Assembly (NCBI GenBank): GCA_021820465.1
Contig: JAKADP010000013.1
Span: 1-44,070, forward strand
DNA from: Bacillota bacterium
Lineage (GTDB): Bacteria; Bacillota; Sulfobacillia; Sulfobacillales; JAIMBI01
Reading direction: 5' to 3'
Length of the DNA stretch: 44,070 nucleotides
Position numbers and translations under genes: made by a program. Each line of letters starts with the position of its first letter. Position 1 is the first letter of the stretch. Positions 2-44,070 of this stretch are shown in pieces. The notes under the pieces were generated by a model. The model did no database searches. It was not told where the DNA came from and saw nothing but the letters and a program-made list of their open reading frames with translations.

Positions 2-892
2 ACCCGCGAGCTGGCCGACGCGCTCGCGGTGGACTATGACGTGCCGGTGGTGCCCCTGAACTGCCAGGAGATTCGGCAGGCGGACCTCGTGCACCTCCTA
101 GAGCAGGTGCTGTACGAGTTCCCGGTCAGCGATCTGTCCGTGGTGCTGACGGGCTGGGCCGCGGCGCTGCCGGACAGCCACTGGCTGGCCCAGCAGTACG
201 CCCGCGCCATGGAGGAAGCTCGCGCCGCCGTCACTCGCGTGCGGGATATTGAAGGGGCCGTGACTGAGCTGCGAGCCCGCGAGTCGGTAGGGGAGGTGCG
301 CCTGGATGCGTTAGAGTTGGGCACCGGGCGGGCGGCGATTCACGTGGCCGCCCAGGATGACTTGTTCTATCGCGTGCTGGGCGAGATGGCGGACCGGCAT
401 GTGGGGGACCGGGCGGACGTGATGAAGCTCTGGGGCGAGTTTGTGGCGGCCAAGGCCGAGTGGGATAAGGTGGCCGGCGCCATGGCGGAGGTGCGCGTCG
501 GCGGCTACGGCATGGTGGCCCCCAGCTTGGGAGAGTTGGACCTGGCCGAGCCCGAGCTGATTCGCCGTGGAAACCAGTTTGGCGTGCGGCTCCGCGCCAC
601 GGCCCCCTCCATTCATCTCATTCGGGCAGACATCGAGACGGAAATCACGCCGATCATTGGGACCGAGCGGCAGGCGGATGAGCTGGTGCGCTACCTGATG
701 GAGCAGTTTGAAGATGATCCGAGCCAGCTGTGGGGCACCAATCTCTTTGGCAAGCCGCTGCACGACCTGGTGCGGGAAGGAATTCAGCAGAAGCTGTTTC
801 GGATGCCAGAGAATGCGCAGGAGAAGCTTCAGGAAACCCTGCAGCGGATCATCAACGAGGGATCGGGCGGGCTCATCTGCATCATCATTTAG
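2..892 (+). CDS. spoIVA: Stage IV sporulation protein A (SpoIVA), C-terminal part
   Basis: SpoIVA is the ATPase that polymerises on the outer forespore membrane and forms the base of the spore coat. The frame is open at the left edge, so the N-terminal GTPase-like domain lies outside the window and about 296 residues are seen; the family protein is about 490. The visible part holds the middle and C-terminal domains, and the last residues, NEGSGGLICIII, match the strongly conserved hydrophobic tail that anchors SpoIVA to the membrane-bound peptide SpoVM. Other family-like stretches are YDVPVVPLNC near the start and DDPSQLWGTNLFGKPL near residue 240. The gene is convergent with the ABC transporter genes that follow. 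It marks the organism as an endospore former. The identification is firm; the true start cannot be seen. Confidence 0.95.
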   Translation, partial: TRELADALAVDYDVPVVPLNCQEIRQADLVHLLEQVLYEFPVSDLSVVLTGWAAALPDSHWLAQQYARAMEEARAAVTRVRDIEGAVTELRARESVGEVRLDALELGTGRAAIHVAAQDDLFYRVLGEMADRHVGDRADVMKLWGEFVAAKAEWDKVAGAMAEVRVGGYGMVAPSLGELDLAEPELIRRGNQFGVRLRATAPSIHLIRADIETEITPIIGTERQADELVRYLMEQFEDDPSQLWGTNLFGKPLHDLVREGIQQKLFRMPENAQEKLQETLQRIINEGSGGLICIII

Positions 893-37548: not shown

Positions 37549-40500
37549 GTGACAGCGGACAGCCCATGGGCCGCATTCTGCCGCGATCACCCAGGACTGG
37601 CCACCGTGGTCGCCGTCACGTGGAGCGCGGACTTGTCCGAGGTGTCGGTGGCGGTGCGGGTGAGCCCTGAATGGACCGACGCGCTGGCCGCGCTGGCGGC
37701 AGACGCTCTGTCTCAAAGCCTCGCGGCCCGGGTTCGGCTGTCGGTCGCGCCCGAGGCGCCCACGGCTCCCGATCGAGTGCGCGCGGCTTTGCCTCGGGGA
37801 TTGGTCGGCGACGGCGGCGTCCGCGAGCAGGCTGATGGCACGCTGGTTCTTACCGTGTCGGGCAGTGGCGGCGCCGCGATCTGGCAGCAGTGGGGGGGCG
37901 AGGACCGCCTCCGCCAGCTGGTGTCAGACATGCCGCCCGTTCGGGTGGAGGTGGTGGCACCCACGGAAGAAGGCCCCCGCGCCGTCGCACTGCCGCCCCT
38001 GCCCCCGGCCCCGCCCCGCTACGGCGGAGCGCCGGAGGGGACGCCCGAACCTCTGGAGCGCGTGGAGGCCGGCGCCAGCGCGACCACAGTCGAGGGCAAG
38101 ATTTTCTCGCGAGAGGAGCGCCTCCTGCGCGACGGGCAGCGCCTGCTCTTGCTGGGCATCACCGATTTCAAGACGTCACTCACCCTCCGGCTCTACTTGT
38201 CCCGCAGCGATGACACCGCGACCGCGCCGTTTGCCGTGGGGCGCTGGGTGCGGGCGGACGGCCCCGTGGAGCAGGACCGGGCGGGCGAGCCGGTCTTGAA
38301 AGTGAGGCACCTGGAGGTGCGGCCAGATCCGGTGCCGGACGACGAGGCCGATGTGAGTCGGGTGGAGTGGCATGCCCACACGAAGATGAGCGCCATGGAT
38401 GCGGTGATGGATGTGTCGGCGCTGGTGGGCCAGGCCGCCGCGCTGGGCCACCCGGCGGTGGCGGTGCTGGATCATGGCGTCGTGCAGGCGTTTCCCGAAG
38501 CGGCCGAGCAAGGCCGGCGGCACGGCATCCGCGTGCTGTACGGCATGGAGGCCTACGTGGTGGACGACGACGTCCAGGTCCTCATCGGCCCGGTGCCGGA
38601 TGGGTCCTGGCGGGACTGGCCGCTGGTGGCCGTCGATATTGAAACGACAGGACTGTCCCCTCTGACTCAAGACATCGTCGAGCTGGGCGCCGTGCGCCTC
38701 GAGCACGGCACCATCGTCGGGCGGTTTTCCCGGCTCATCCGCCCGGCCCGGCGGCCGATGTCCCAAGCGTCCCAGGTCATTACCGGCATCCGGCCGGAAG
38801 ACTTGGCCGACGCCCCCGAGGTCGGGACGGTGTTGGCCGAGTTTCGCGCGTTCTGCGCCGGTGCCGTGCTGGTGGCCCACAATGCCGCGTTTGACTATGG
38901 CTTTTTGGCGCCGTGGCTGGAGCCGGGGCACGGGCCGTGGCCCCTCCTCGACACGCTGGGCTTGGCGCGGGCGGTCCTGCCCCTCCAGCGGCAGTACGGG
39001 CTGGAGCCACTGTGCCGCGAGCTCAAAATCTCTCTAGACCAACACCATCGCGCGGAGTCGGATGCCGAGGCGTGCGGACAGCTGGCCCTGGCCCTGCTGG
39101 CCCGTGCGGAGGGGAGCTCGCTGGCGGATGGCGGGCTTTGGCGGCGGGTCCCGATTCCGGTGGCCGCGGCCCGGCCGTACCCCGTGCTGGTGTATCCGCG
39201 CCACGCCCAGGGACTCTTGGCCCTCTACCGGGCGGTGTCGGCCGCTCACGTGGAGCACTTTCACCGCGTGCCCCGGCTGCCGGCCTCGGTGTTGGCAACC
39301 CACCGCGAGGACTGGCTGGTCGGGGCGCCGGCGCTGGACGGCGAGCTGACGTCCGCCCTGCTGCAGGGACGAACGGCTGAAGAGCTGGGACCGCTGGTTG
39401 GGCGCTACGACTTCTTGGAGGTGGTTCCGCCCGCGGCGGCGCGGGACTGGGCCGACGACGGCTGGCTCGGTGACGCGGAGGCCGTCGAGCGCCTGCTGGC
39501 GGAAGTGGTCTCCTTGGGCGAGCGGTACGGCCGGCCTGTGGTCGCCACCTCCGACGCGCATTATCTGCTGCCCGAGGATGCGGTGCTCCGGGAGATTTTG
39601 GCCGTCACCGCCAAAACCGAGCTGCATGCGCGGCGCGGAGCGGTGCACCTGCGCACGACCGGCGCCATGCTGGCGGAGATGGCCTTTTTGGGGCCCGAGC
39701 GGGCGCAGCGGGTGGTGGTCGCGGCCCCCCGGGCTCTATTGGAGGAGCTGACCCCGCTCGAGCCCATCCCCGAGGGCCTGCACAGTCCCAATCTGCCGGA
39801 GGCGGAGCCCACGGTCTCGACCATCCCGTGGGAGCGAGCCCGGTCCCTCTACGGCGACCGGGTGCCGGACTTTGTGGCCCAACGGCTCGAGCGGGAAATC
39901 AGCGCCATCTTGGAGCATGGGTACGCCAGCGTGTACTACACGGCGCACCGTTTGGCGAAGAAGACGATCGAGGATGGCTACCTCGTGGGCAGCCGAGGGT
40001 CTGTCGGGTCGTCCTTGGTGGCCACGTATCTGGACATCACGGAGGTGAATCCGCTGCCGCCGCACTATCGGTGTCCTGGGTGCCGGTGGTCGCGGCTGGC
40101 GGACGAGGCGGACGGCTCGGTGGGATCCGGGTTCGACCTGCCCCGGCGGGACTGCCCCCGCTGCGGCACCCCGTTGGTGGGCGACGGCCAGGACATCCCG
40201 TTTGAAACCTTCCTGGGGTTTCACGGGGAGAAGGTGCCCGACATCGATCTGAATTTTTCCGGCGACTACCAGGGCATCATTCACCGCTATACGGAAGAGC
40301 TGTTTGGCGCGGGGCAGGTGTTTCGCGCGGGAACCATCGCTACCGTCGCGGAGCGCACGGCGTTTGGGCTCGTCAAGGCGTGGTGCCGGGAAGCCGGGCG
40401 CGAGCTGCGCGCGGCGGAGGTGGACCGCCTGGTGTTGGGCCTCACGGGGGTGAAGCGCACCACGGGCCAACACCCGGGTGGGCTGATGCTGGTGCCCGAC

Positions 40501-41661
40501 GGCGACGATATCCACCACTACACGCCGGTGCAGCGGCCCGCCGACGCCGCGACCACCGACGTGCGCACCACGCACTTTGACTACCACGCCATTGAGGGCC
40601 GGCTCTTGAAGCTGGACCTGCTGGGCCATGAAGACCCGACGACCCTCCGGCTGCTGACGGAGCTCACGGGGCAGCCGATTGAGGAGGTGCCCTTTCAGGA
40701 CGCGGCGACGATGGCGCTGTTTTCGGGGACCGCGAGCCTGGGCCTCTCGGAGGATCAGCTGGGCACCGGGGTGGGGACCGTGGGCCTGCCCGAGTTTGGC
40801 ACGGCGTTTGTGCGCCGCATGCTGATGGATACGCGCCCCCAGAGCTTCAGCGACCTCGTGCGCATCTCGGGGCTCTCGCACGGCACCAATGTGTGGGCCA
40901 ACAATGCGGACGCCCTGATTCGTGAGCGGGTGGCGTCCCTCTCCGAGGTGATCGCCACGCGCGACGACGTGATGACCTACCTAATCCGCCGCGGCATGGC
41001 GCCCGCCGACGCGTTTGGGATCTCCGAGCATGTGCGCCGGGGCCGGGCGCTGTCGGACGCGGAGCGCACGGCCATGCGGGCAGTGGGCGTGCCGGCCTGG
41101 TACATTCAGTCCTGCGACCGCATTACCTATTTGTTCCCGAAGGCGCACGCGGCGGCGTACGTCACCATGGGTTGGCGGATCGCGTGGTTCAAGGTGCACC
41201 ATCCGCTGCCGTACTACGCGGTGTACTTCACGCTCCGGCGGGACGACTTCCGGCCCGACCTGGCGCTGGCGGGCTTGGCGGCCGTGCGGCAAGAGCAGCG
41301 GCGGCTGGAGGGCTTGGCCACTGAGGCCACGGCCAAGGATAAGTCCCGGGCCGCGGTGCTGGAGGTGGTGGCGGAGATGTTGCTGCGCGGCTTTCGCTTT
41401 TTGCCCCTATCCCTCATGGAGTCCCAGGCCGACCGATTTGGCGTCGTGCCCCCCGACGGACTCATGCTGCCCTTTGGGGCACTGCCCGGGCTGGGCCGGA
41501 CGGCCGCGGCGCACATCGTGGAGAGCCGGCGCGCCGGACCGTTTATCTCCGTGGAAGACTTGCGCGAGCGAGCCCGGCTCACCAAGCCCGTGCTGGAGCT
41601 GCTCCGGCAGTACGGCGCGCTGGACGACCTCGGCGAAACTCGGCAGCTGGCCCTGTTTTAG
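37549..41661 (+). CDS. polC: DNA polymerase III PolC-type alpha subunit
   Basis: Replicative polymerase of low-GC-type Gram-positives, 1370 residues (B. subtilis 1437). N-terminal and OB regions to about 260; PHP domain begins with EWHAHTKMSAMDAV at about 273-286; the 3'-5' exonuclease is inserted in it (DIETTGLS near 362, AHNAAFDYGFL, HHRAESDAEA). Zinc-type cysteines lie at about 843-872; catalytic Asps are in PDIDLNFSGDYQ near 896; then HPGG, RISGLSHGTNVW, and the tail DLGETRQLALF. GTG with GAGGAGG upstream. Normally rimP follows; here nusA does. Confidence 0.97.
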   Translation: MTADSPWAAFCRDHPGLATVVAVTWSADLSEVSVAVRVSPEWTDALAALAADALSQSLAARVRLSVAPEAPTAPDRVRAALPRGLVGDGGVREQADGTLVLTVSGSGGAAIWQQWGGEDRLRQLVSDMPPVRVEVVAPTEEGPRAVALPPLPPAPPRYGGAPEGTPEPLERVEAGASATTVEGKIFSREERLLRDGQRLLLLGITDFKTSLTLRLYLSRSDDTATAPFAVGRWVRADGPVEQDRAGEPVLKVRHLEVRPDPVPDDEADVSRVEWHAHTKMSAMDAVMDVSALVGQAAALGHPAVAVLDHGVVQAFPEAAEQGRRHGIRVLYGMEAYVVDDDVQVLIGPVPDGSWRDWPLVAVDIETTGLSPLTQDIVELGAVRLEHGTIVGRFSRLIRPARRPMSQASQVITGIRPEDLADAPEVGTVLAEFRAFCAGAVLVAHNAAFDYGFLAPWLEPGHGPWPLLDTLGLARAVLPLQRQYGLEPLCRELKISLDQHHRAESDAEACGQLALALLARAEGSSLADGGLWRRVPIPVAAARPYPVLVYPRHAQGLLALYRAVSAAHVEHFHRVPRLPASVLATHREDWLVGAPALDGELTSALLQGRTAEELGPLVGRYDFLEVVPPAAARDWADDGWLGDAEAVERLLAEVVSLGERYGRPVVATSDAHYLLPEDAVLREILAVTAKTELHARRGAVHLRTTGAMLAEMAFLGPERAQRVVVAAPRALLEELTPLEPIPEGLHSPNLPEAEPTVSTIPWERARSLYGDRVPDFVAQRLEREISAILEHGYASVYYTAHRLAKKTIEDGYLVGSRGSVGSSLVATYLDITEVNPLPPHYRCPGCRWSRLADEADGSVGSGFDLPRRDCPRCGTPLVGDGQDIPFETFLGFHGEKVPDIDLNFSGDYQGIIHRYTEELFGAGQVFRAGTIATVAERTAFGLVKAWCREAGRELRAAEVDRLVLGLTGVKRTTGQHPGGLMLVPDGDDIHHYTPVQRPADAATTDVRTTHFDYHAIEGRLLKLDLLGHEDPTTLRLLTELTGQPIEEVPFQDAATMALFSGTASLGLSEDQLGTGVGTVGLPEFGTAFVRRMLMDTRPQSFSDLVRISGLSHGTNVWANNADALIRERVASLSEVIATRDDVMTYLIRRGMAPADAFGISEHVRRGRALSDAERTAMRAVGVPAWYIQSCDRITYLFPKAHAAAYVTMGWRIAWFKVHHPLPYYAVYFTLRRDDFRPDLALAGLAAVRQEQRRLEGLATEATAKDKSRAAVLEVVAEMLLRGFRFLPLSLMESQADRFGVVPPDGLMLPFGALPGLGRTAAAHIVESRRAGPFISVEDLRERARLTKPVLELLRQYGALDDLGETRQLALF

Positions 41662-41694
41662 GTCCACCCCCCCGCGGGCGGCGCGGGGCGCCGC

Positions 41695-41724
41695 TTGAGT
41701 TGGCGACGGCGCCTGTGGTACACT
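41695..41724 (+). promoter_or_regulatory. Promoter of the nusA operon
   Basis: TTGAGT (41695-41700), 18-bp spacer, extended -10 TGGTACACT (TACACT 41719-41724). Start expected near 41731, giving a leader of about 178 nt before nusA. Confidence 0.75.
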
Positions 41725-41781
41725 CGGCATGGAATCCGACCGGGCCGTGCATAAGCGTGCACCATCGGTGCCAAGCGATCG

Positions 41782-41805
41782 GAGTGGGTGTGGGCCCACT
41801 CTTTT
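41782..41805 (+). terminator. Probable attenuator in the nusA leader
   Basis: GAGTGGG (41782-41788) pairs with CCCACTC (41795-41801) around a 6-nt loop, followed by TTTT. It lies 50-75 nt after the predicted start and before nusA, so it can stop transcription early. A GTGCA/TGCAC pair (41747-41751 with 41758-41762) lies upstream. It could also be the end of read-through from polC. Confidence 0.6.
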
Positions 41806-41908
41806 CACATGCCGGGATGTTCCGCTCCCCTCGGGGCGCGGTTGGTTTGGTGTGAGATGAGGCGGGCGTGCGATACCCGAGTGGAGTTGCTAGGAGGTCG
41901 TTGGCAGG

Positions 41909-43012
41909 ATGAACCCCGAATTTCTCGGAGCGCTTTCCGACTTGGAGCGCGATCGGGGGATCGACAAAGAGATTTTAATTCAGGCGATCGAGGCAGCACT
42001 GATTTCGGCCTATCGCCGGCACTTCGGCATGACCCAGAACGTGCGTGTGGAAGTGGATCGCCAAACGGGCGAGCCACAGGTGTTTGCCATTAAGACCGTG
42101 GTGGAGTCCGTGGAGGACGAGCGCACGGAGGTGTCCCTGGCAGACGCGCACCGTGACAATCCGACGCTGGATCCGGGCGACGTGGTGGAATACAACGTGA
42201 CCCCCAGCACGTTCAGCCGCATTGCGGCCCAGACGGCCAAGCAGGTGGTGATGCAACGCATCCGGGAAGCTGAGCGGGGCCTCATTTATCAAGAGTTTTC
42301 GAGCCGTGAAGGGGACGTCGTGAGTGGGGTGGTCCAGCGGGTTCAGGGCAGCACGGATGCCGCCGGCCGGGACTTGGCGGACTTGTTTCGGGGTGCAGAC
42401 TCGCATCAGCGGCTGTTTGTGGACTTAGGGCGCACGCAAGCCATCTTGCGGCCGGCAGACCAGGTGCCCAGTGAGGACCTGCGCTCCGGCGAGCGGGTGC
42501 GTGCCTACGTCGTGGAGGTGAAAAAGGCGGCTCGCGGGCCCGAAATTTACGTGTCGCGGACCCACCCGGGCTTGCTCAAGCGCCTATTTGAATTGGAGGT
42601 GCCCGAAATCCACGACGGTCTGGTGCACATCAAAGGCATTGCTCGGGAGGCCGGGTATCGGTCGAAAATTTCTGTCTGGGCTGACGATCCCGACCTGGAT
42701 CCCGTCGGCGCGTGCGTCGGCCCGCAGGGCAAGCGCGTCCAGGCCATCGTGAATGAGATCCGGGGCGAAAAGCTGGACATTATTCACTGGGATCCGGACC
42801 CAGCTGTGCTGGTCGCGCACGCGCTGTCTCCCGCGAAGGTGGTCTCGGTGGACATCGACGAAGAGACCCGCCATGCCCGCGTCGTCGTTCCGGACTACCA
42901 GCTGTCGCTGGCCATTGGCAAGGACGGGCAAAATGCCCGGCTCGCCGCCAAGTTGACCCAGTACAAAGTGGACATTCGCTCGGAGTCACAGGCAGGAGGC
43001 GGAGCATGGTGA
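41909..43012 (+). CDS. nusA: Transcription termination/antitermination factor NusA
   Basis: 367 residues. N-terminal RNA polymerase-binding domain (about 1-130), S1 domain (about 135-205), two KH domains (GACVGPQGKRVQAIVNEIRGEKLDII and LAIGKDGQNARLAAKLT). No acidic C-terminal repeats, as in Bacillota. The S1 domain has an insert of about 20 residues at 148-167 (STDAAGRDLADLF). AGGAGG lies 8-12 nt before the ATG. Own promoter and leader upstream; overlaps ylxR by 7 bp. Confidence 0.97.
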   Translation: MNPEFLGALSDLERDRGIDKEILIQAIEAALISAYRRHFGMTQNVRVEVDRQTGEPQVFAIKTVVESVEDERTEVSLADAHRDNPTLDPGDVVEYNVTPSTFSRIAAQTAKQVVMQRIREAERGLIYQEFSSREGDVVSGVVQRVQGSTDAAGRDLADLFRGADSHQRLFVDLGRTQAILRPADQVPSEDLRSGERVRAYVVEVKKAARGPEIYVSRTHPGLLKRLFELEVPEIHDGLVHIKGIAREAGYRSKISVWADDPDLDPVGACVGPQGKRVQAIVNEIRGEKLDIIHWDPDPAVLVAHALSPAKVVSVDIDEETRHARVVVPDYQLSLAIGKDGQNARLAAKLTQYKVDIRSESQAGGGAW

Positions 43013-43326
43013 CGAGAGTGCGGGAGCGGCGGCGTCCCATCCGGTCGTGTGTCGCGTGTGGCCGATCCGCGGACAAGCGGGAGCTCATCCGCGTGGTGAG
43101 AAGTCCCGATGGCAGGGTGTTCGTGGACACCACGGGCAAGCAGTCCGGACGCGGGGCGTATCTGTGCCGGATGGAGGCCTGCTTGGACGCCGCCTTGAAG
43201 AGCCGCCGTCTGGAGCGAGGCTTGTCCCTGCCGGCGCCCGTTCCCGAGGGCGTTGTCGCGGCGCTGAGGGCAGCGATGGCCGAGGGGGCGGTGCCCTCGG
43301 TCCGGGGAGGAGCCCCCCATGGCTAG
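43006..43326 (+). CDS. ylxR: YlxR/RnpM-like RNA-binding protein (DUF448)
   Basis: 106 residues. SCVACGRSADKRELIRVVRSPDG and TGKQSGRGAYLCRMEACLDAA are the DUF448 signature; the family member RnpM binds RNase P RNA. AGGAGG lies before ATG 43006. It keeps the standard nusA-ylxR-ylxQ-infB place and overlaps ylxQ by 8 bp. Confidence 0.94.
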   Translation: MVTRVRERRRPIRSCVACGRSADKRELIRVVRSPDGRVFVDTTGKQSGRGAYLCRMEACLDAALKSRRLERGLSLPAPVPEGVVAALRAAMAEGAVPSVRGGAPHG

Positions 43327-44070
43327 CGGCCGGTGGACGGACTGGCTGGGATTGGCCAAGCGCGCGGGGCGGCTGGCGCCCGGCGACTCCCAGGTGAGGC
43401 GGGCGCTGCAGGACAATCGCGCGCGGGCGGTGGTGGTGGCGGAGGATGCAGGCCACTCGGTGCGACGGCGGTACGAGAGCTGGGCAGACGAGCGTGCGAT
43501 CCCCCTGGTTGTCCTCGGCACAAAGGAAGAGCTGGGAGTGGCGATTGGCATGGGCCCGCACGCGGTGATGGCCGTTACGCAGAAAAGTTTGGTGAAGGGA
43601 TTGCTGGGAGCCATCGCGGAGAGCACGGGGAGGAATTATCTTGGCAGAGAAACCGAGCAAGGCGGACAGCGACAAGACGGAGAAGAGCGAGAAGGATCGC
43701 GGCATACGCGTTTACGAGCTGGCGAAGGAGCTGAAACTCGACAGCCGCCGCCTCATCGACCTCCTGCACCGGCTGCAGGTCGAAAATATTCGCAACCACA
43801 TGAGCACCGTCGAGCCGGGCCCGGAGCGGATCGTGCGCGACATTATGCAGGGCAAGCTCCCTCCGACCGGCTCCGCGACGGCCGCGCCAGCGAGCAGCGG
43901 GCCGGAGGTGCCGACTTCGGACGTGGCCAGCCCCGCGGCCCCCGCTACGGCGGCGCCCCCAGCGGCGGCGCCCACCGCGAGGACGGGCGTCGCCCCAGCC
44001 CAGCGTCCGGGCGTCCCGACGCCCGGAGAGCGGCGCACCCCTCCGCCCGCGGCGGGTCCGTCCCGACCAG
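43319..44070 (+). CDS. ylxQ: YlxQ, L7Ae-family ribosomal-type protein; frame still open at window end
   Basis: ATG 43319 opens MASGRWTDWLGLAKRAGRL, followed by a kink-turn-binding L7Ae-like domain (VVVAEDAGHSVRRRYESWAD, IPLVVLGTKEELGVAIG, VMAVTQKSLVKGLLGAI) to about residue 105. The family ends there, near 43640, where infB starts in another frame. In this sequence the frame has no stop: it runs at least 430 nt through infB, giving a 145-residue Arg/Pro/Gly-rich tail typical of an out-of-frame reading. Either the protein really has a long overlapping tail, or the true end is beyond the window, or a base error removed the stop. The core domain is certain; the tail is not. Confidence 0.75.
   Translation, partial: MASGRWTDWLGLAKRAGRLAPGDSQVRRALQDNRARAVVVAEDAGHSVRRRYESWADERAIPLVVLGTKEELGVAIGMGPHAVMAVTQKSLVKGLLGAIAESTGRNYLGRETEQGGQRQDGEEREGSRHTRLRAGEGAETRQPPPHRPPAPAAGRKYSQPHEHRRAGPGADRARHYAGQAPSDRLRDGRASEQRAGGADFGRGQPRGPRYGGAPSGGAHREDGRRPSPASGRPDARRAAHPSARGGSVPT
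43641..44070 (+). CDS. infB: Translation initiation factor IF-2, N-terminal part
   Basis: TTG 43641 follows GGGGAGG at 7 nt. After a charged opening (AEKPSKADSDKTEKSEKD) comes the IF2N helical domain IRVYELAKELKLDSRRLIDL...VENIRNHMSTVE at about 26-62, then a low-complexity Ala/Pro-rich linker to the window edge (143 codons). IF-2 places initiator tRNA on the 30S subunit. The GTPase domain lies outside. Confidence 0.93.
   Translation, partial: MAEKPSKADSDKTEKSEKDRGIRVYELAKELKLDSRRLIDLLHRLQVENIRNHMSTVEPGPERIVRDIMQGKLPPTGSATAAPASSGPEVPTSDVASPAAPATAAPPAAAPTARTGVAPAQRPGVPTPGERRTPPPAAGPSRP

Follow-up and report, generated by a model that had tools for sequence, protein, structure and literature searches.

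What does an attenuator-like leader do directly in front of nusA in bacteria that appear to have no RimP? The question arises from a 44,070-nt stretch of DNA (the window; all features described below lie on its + strand) from a member of the Bacillota belonging to the order that contains Sulfobacillus. A sequence-only reading of this stretch had noticed a short hairpin with a UUUU tract ahead of nusA and had suggested that NusA could limit its own synthesis through it. Our analyses show that this class of attenuators is known and that its setting here is unusual, since it is kept directly before nusA without rimP. The putative stop signal is nearly unchanging, is common to many Firmicutes and probably lets NusA limit its own production.

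Organization of the nusA leader

The upstream neighbor, polC (37549-41661; PF07733, PF00929, PF02811), is separated from nusA (41909-43012; NusA_N PF08529, KH_5 PF13184) by a gap of 247 nt (polC end 41661, nusA start 41909), too small for rimP. With rimP missing, nusA, preceded by a ribosome-binding site recognizable in the sequence (AGGAGGT, 41892-41898), is expected to be the first gene of the transcript. It is followed by ylxR (43006-43326; PF04296), by a gene for a ylxQ-like L7Ae-family protein (43319-43660; PF01248; these limits are those of the scanned stretch, the frame being open beyond) and by the start of infB (43641-44069; PF04760), which runs off the window. The hairpin GAGTGGG-TGTGGG-CCCACTC occupies positions 41782-41801, 120 nt 3' of the polC end, and is followed by TTTT at 41802-41805, a short U-tract in the transcript that a C interrupts at 41806. 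Its stem, GAGTGGG/CCCACTC, comprises 7 bp around the loop TGTGGG, or 8 bp if an inner U-G pair is counted. The 7-bp hairpin with UUUU thus exists as first described, and the distances originally given for it are correct, the predicted start near 41731 lying some 50 nt and nusA roughly 100 nt away. From the end of the stem at 41801 to the nusA ATG at 41909 there are 107 nt, within the 4-130 nt range published for the rimP-leader (PMC2965389). Upstream of the attenuator, GTGCA (41747-41751) and TGCAC (41758-41762) delimit another small hairpin (41747-41762). A second small hairpin, CCGC..GCGG, is found after the attenuator at 41822-41841, and in other genera the stretch from the U-tract to the ribosome-binding site seems, by eye, to carry small hairpins too, though differing ones.

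Between polC and the hairpin lies a promoter-like site, TTGAGT-18-TACACT, with TG ahead of the second hexamer (41695-41724). Its -35-like TTGAGT (41695-41700) follows a pattern common to the leaders of the order, and its extended -10-like element TGGTACACT (41716-41724; TG at 41716-41717, TACACT at 41719-41724) agrees with the TGnTAnnnT of its relatives, placing the expected start of this predicted nusA promoter near 41731. The pattern TTG(N3)-16..19-TA(N3)T, ending 51-89 nt 5' of the hairpin, occurs in 37 of 40 leaders of the order, a raw count without shuffled control. TTGAG[TC] is present in 7/7 genomes of the window's family and TGnTAnnnT in 38/40 leaders of the order, where the matches of G010 and G017 lie nearer the hairpin and are probably wrong. 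A strict sigma-70 scan found no promoter in the gap. The sequence TTGACA, located 3' of the U-tract, was considered as a promoter and dropped because no -10 was seen by eye.

The hairpin is well above chance. Of 5000 dinucleotide-Markov sequences modelled on the polC-nusA gap, 3 contained a perfect 7-bp stem followed by TTTT; the + strand of the window, cut into 178 successive 247-nt stretches, gave 2, one of them holding this very hairpin. The exact stem pair with a loop of 3-20 nt occurs at a single site in the 2.88 Mb genome. A generic terminator scan did not list it because that scan asks for five T and the hairpin has four. Compared with shuffled sequences, the fold of the leader was unremarkable (z -1.26 at both lengths tried), so that the case rests on conservation among relatives. 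In searches with the covariance models of Rfam 15, only a tRNA-Pro reached the gathering threshold in the window, and only two weak matches, far below gathering, were obtained in 41650-41920 with E up to 10.

Conservation of the hairpin within the order

We examined 61 genomes, 42 of which belong to this order, and found nusA in 40 of these 42; the two genomes without a match, G039 and G041, have completeness values of 59% and 61%, respectively. In all 40 leaders GAGTGGG(5-13 nt)CCCACTC, with three or more T behind it, is located 67-128 nt 5' of the matched nusA start, and all 14 stem bases are identical, although 39 of the 40 leaders are distinct. Conservation in relatives had been named by the sequence-only reading as a check on its proposal, and within the order it is complete (40/40). 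A comparison of the window with the 33 genomes of the order that do not belong to its family gave 100% identity for the stem, against averages of 29% for the 40 nt located 5' of the stem and 57% for the 18 nt located 3' of it. The U-tract is conserved as well, with T at +1 to +3 in 40/40 leaders and at +4 in 38/40, and several positions beyond it are fixed or nearly so: C at +7 (40/40), T at +9 (40/40), G at +10 (39/40) and G at +15 (39/40).

These near-fixed positions define a conserved stretch 3' of the U-tract, corresponding to 41806-41819 in the window. In most of the order (for instance L009, L014 and L027) this stretch is a near-fixed CTTGACARGGGC, which differs in the window's family. 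We considered a boxA-like reading of CTTGACARGGGC, which has only partial likeness to the CCTTGAAAACT of the rrn leaders of the order and to the CCTTGACAACTG of the window genome's own rrn; we do not claim it because the window's nusA leader has CACATGCCGGG at this place. Mimicry of rRNA was also rejected, as none of five rRNA loci holds both exact arms.

Apparent loss of rimP

Profile searches indicate that the order appears to lack RimP. RimP_N matched in 0/42 genomes of the order, in 17/19 genomes of the class outside the order, where rimP lies directly upstream of nusA, and in 385/398 genomes of a phylum sample, three of the 13 misses belonging to the order; control genomes matched in 10 of 14 cases each time. 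RimP_C gave no match over the cut-off in the 42 genomes of the order. Weak RimP_C matches, not tied to nusA, were seen at L205:509-769 (G008; 87 aa) and L206:514-834 (G027; 107 aa). In these two small proteins RimP_C (their best Pfam match) and DUF2642 stayed below the cut-offs and RimP_N was absent, and we set them aside as RimP candidates. A literature search for Sulfobacillus together with RimP yielded no paper.

Ten rimP-less genomes of the phylum fall outside the order, and nusA was found in six of them. In G154, a genome outside the class in which no rimP was detected, the stem is still found before nusA and is followed by TTAAA. The stem of G308 is longer and lacks a U-tract, and this genome could accommodate a diverged rimP. 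No leader hairpin was found before nusA in three genomes of genus g49 without detectable rimP, and the idea that the leader always survives the loss of rimP is thus not borne out. In this genus (L111, L112, L118), nusA is located close behind a gene that, named by eye, is mgtC-like. G280 was unreadable, its nusA being at a contig edge. In G386, one of the four genomes without nusA match, the hairpin is seen by eye at the end of the contig, which means that rimP may be missing there because of a gap in the assembly.

The hairpin precedes rimP outside the order

Of the 19 genomes of the class that fall outside the order, 18 gave a nusA match, and [AG]AGTGGG..CCCACT[CT] stands 506-618 nt 5' of it in 16 of these 18. 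In G046 the hairpin was seen in a longer stretch, 667 nt 5' of nusA, and G053 was unreadable because its contig begins 181 nt 5' of nusA. A near-same stem is present in 17/17 readable genomes, which are the 17 with a RimP_N match.

We also inspected the best 80 of at least 584 matches to the NusA protein (named loci). Among these best 80, the hairpin is present in 71 and absent from 9: it occurs in 9/9 loci assigned to the order, at -66 to -130 (apparently genomes already counted within the order), and in 62 of the 71 others, at -540 to -822. Using a profile made from one rimP frame, a rimP-like frame was detected upstream of nusA in 71/71 of the named loci outside the order and in 0/9 of those of the order, and it sits between hairpin and nusA in 62/62 of the non-order loci with hairpin. 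As controls, the 900-nt stretches downstream of the nusA start gave the hairpin pattern in 0/80 named loci, and Markov sequences gave it in 1/1600. Of 20 further genomes of the phylum, chosen from the best rimP matches, 16 have AGTGGG..CCCACTNTTT on the same strand as the RimP_N match and no more than 200 nt upstream of it, and 4 lack the pattern. A reversed control pattern gave 10 matches in 8 of 30 phylum genomes, and five rimP-less phylum genomes and some others hold AGTGGG..CCCACTNTTT matches elsewhere in the genome; since the reversed control also matches, it is the position before rimP that constitutes the evidence, not mere presence. As the genome and locus sets overlap and the genomes are related, these counts are not independent events.

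GAGTGGG/CCCACTC is near-fixed across the Bacillota sampled. In three genomes (L144, G048 and G050), the closing pair has changed from G-C to A-U, which supports pairing. Among the named loci with hairpin (from the best 80 of at least 584 matches), the T-run is 3-4 long in 68/71 and 0 or 1 in three; its length is 4 in 8/9 loci of the order and 3 in 52/62 others. At most two T follow the stem in the class relatives G042, G044, G047 and G056. Extended stems without a real U-tract were also observed in class relatives, GACTGGAGTGGG/CCCACTCCAGTC in L045 (G047) and L113 (G308), and GAAGAGTGGG/CCCACTCTTC in L057 (G044) and L046 (G056).

Relationship to published leaders

Judged by its sequence and position, the hairpin studied here looks like the known rimP-leader element with rimP lost. 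In their account of that attenuator, Naville and Gautheret (2010, PMC2965389) describe a conserved GGGc(...)gCCC stem with a T-stretch, located 4-130 nt from the gene and without visible antiterminator, and give NusA as the best effector candidate and RimP as a possible alternative. The leader of the order shares with that description (PMC2965389) the G-rich 5' arm and C-rich 3' arm (GGG...CCC), the T-stretch that follows, the conservation of the stem sequence, the location in the leader of an operon containing nusA and infB at no more than 130 nt from the first gene, and an antiterminator that is not visible. It differs in the absence of rimP, the first gene here being nusA, in the published inner pair c-g (GGGc..gCCC), which is U-G in the window, GGG...CCC being invariant in the 40 leaders of the order, and in the longer near-invariant block GAGTGGG/CCCACTC of the genomes compared here.

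Other systems were compared by their published descriptions. A review reports that NusA of Bacillus subtilis controls its own synthesis by stimulating termination in the leader (PMC12288461); both leaders have a terminator ahead of the nusA operon, stimulated by NusA there and presumably here, and rimP (ylxS) is the first gene in B. subtilis (PMC2965389), unlike in the window. For the rimP-nusA-IF2 operon of Streptococcus agalactiae, NusA negative feedback was proposed from a mapped short RNA (PMC4448216), and that leader, like ours, has a predicted intrinsic terminator, whereas rimP is present there and termination was mapped 31 nt after the start, versus the roughly 80 nt expected here. The metY-nusA-infB operon of Escherichia coli is likewise repressed by NusA, according to both PMC2965389 and PMC4448216. 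NusA-dependent terminators show distal U-tract interruptions (PMC8060035, citing Mondal et al. 2016), and the suboptimal U-tract of the window, four T and then C, is in line with this feature, which is a tendency and not a requirement.

A probable NusA-responsive attenuator and its alternatives

We consider it likely that the leader is a NusA-responsive transcription attenuator that would provide NusA feedback. RNA polymerase would start near 41731 and form the GAGUGGG/CCCACUC hairpin about 50 nt later, where the U-tract alone is probably not long enough to release the transcript efficiently. At high NusA levels, polymerase-bound NusA would favor hairpin closure and pausing, and transcripts would end near 41808-41810, a release site that we infer by counting 7-9 nt from the stem, the spacing rule given in PMC8060035. 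When NusA is scarce, the polymerase would read through into nusA-ylxR-ylxQ-infB. An antiterminator would be unnecessary in such a mechanism; the NusA-autoregulated leader of B. subtilis is not known to have one. The element itself would be the rimP-leader of other Firmicutes, left directly before nusA after the order lost rimP. The original suggestion of an attenuator-like leader with NusA feedback as its most likely purpose is therefore strengthened, both by the conservation in 40/40 leaders and by the like element and mechanism published for other Firmicutes.

Equilibrium folding predictions, made on the segment that begins at the predicted start and extends 8 nt beyond the stem, gave a mean pair probability of the terminator stem of 0.84-1.0 in 39/40 leaders of the order (1.0 in the window) and of 0.67 in one, with hairpin energies of -10.3 to -13.8 kcal/mol and no competing fold predicted among the 40. 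The start was assumed to lie 60 nt before the stem in G028 and G035 and is probably placed too near in G010 and G017.

These predictions bear on an antiterminator/terminator switch, in which GTGCA/TGCAC would take part in an alternative fold, as the sequence-only reading had suggested. The pair does exist, in the window it can fold into the upstream hairpin, and other small upstream hairpins seem, by eye, to occur in further genera, but a role in a competing fold did not hold up. The pair has no overlap with the terminator, whose stem reaches near-full probability in the window and at least 0.84 in all leaders except the one at 0.67; the 40 nt before the stem average 29% identity outside the family against 100% for the stem; and the general form of the rimP-leader has no antiterminator in the description of Naville and Gautheret (PMC2965389). 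Inspecting the 40 leaders by eye, we saw the pair in the four genomes of the window's genus, with its inner pair broken in G002, and not in the sister genera. Folding and this genus-only occurrence lead us to reject such an antiterminator, and a switch is very unlikely. A terminator of the upstream gene, or an insulator, would agree with the end of polC 120 nt before the hairpin in the window and appears even less probable. A promoter-like site intervenes, and the upstream neighbor in the 28 genomes of the order with enough sequence is the polC end in 5, another frame in 19 (membrane-protein-like by eye) and uninformative in 4, with the hairpin present in all 28. These two observations reject a polC terminator and, as the neighbor varies and the hairpin stays, the element goes with nusA. 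At the DNA level the element is an inverted repeat, as a palindromic operator for a repressor would be, but its arms are spaced by 4 to 13 nt, hardly tolerable for a dimer operator, and the T-tract is on the nusA side in 40/40 leaders of the order. With such variable spacing we reject this operator, which is scarcely credible. Sensing of the leader by RimP, a reading invited by the name rimP-leader, has next to no probability. The element does precede rimP outside the order (16/20 phylum genomes, and 62/62 of the named loci with hairpin among the best 80 of at least 584 matches), but RimP_N was found in 0/42 genomes of the order and the leader in all 40 with a nusA match, and the stem likewise persists before nusA in G154, a rimP-less genome from beyond the class. 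The weak RimP_C matches of G008 and G027 call for some reserve here. Because the leader stays before nusA in an order without detectable RimP, RimP is unlikely to be its regulator there, and sensing by RimP is refuted for this order unless an unrecognized RimP exists.

The sequence of the stem sits less easily with the preferred NusA-responsive attenuation. For intrinsic termination the strength of the stem matters and not its exact sequence, nor is NusA known to require a particular stem sequence, so that the invariance of the stem is not explained by NusA stimulation alone. The absence of the hairpin from the three rimP-less genomes of g49, from 9 of the best 80 named loci (of at least 584) and from 4 of 20 phylum genomes with rimP also speaks against the preferred reading. 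A stem kept with at most two T, or with a T-run of 0 or 1 as in three named loci, hardly fits a plain intrinsic terminator, and the invariance of this stem, kept in some genomes without U-tract, hints at sequence-specific reading. We tentatively propose, as a possibility, that GAGUGGG/CCCACUC may be a sequence-specific regulatory RNA and not a generic terminator stem; its reader, either NusA within the elongation complex or a different operon protein, would adjust how much nusA-infB transcript is made through both pausing and release. Alternatively, a protein different from NusA (YlxR, the L7Ae-like YlxQ or another factor) might recognize the hairpin by its sequence, as RNA or within the transcription bubble, termination being only part of what the element does. 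Such a reader would account for stem bases that are near-invariant though any G+C-rich stem could terminate and for a stem that survives without a real U-tract in four genomes of the class, and ylxR and ylxQ do belong to the operon. Against it, the literature examined offers no specific binding partner, Naville and Gautheret favor NusA as the best candidate (PMC2965389) and NusA feedback is reported for B. subtilis (PMC12288461), and we regard a reader other than NusA as rather unlikely.

Implications

The order represents a natural rimP deletion, which separates the two hypotheses left open in 2010. Since the leader outlives rimP, its most likely target is nusA or the genes that follow, and the natural loss of rimP favors NusA autoregulation. 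At the same time, the near-unchanging stem points to an unexplained sequence requirement in a terminator hairpin, a structure usually regarded as indifferent to sequence. Cultured Sulfobacillus species make the question of what this leader does testable.
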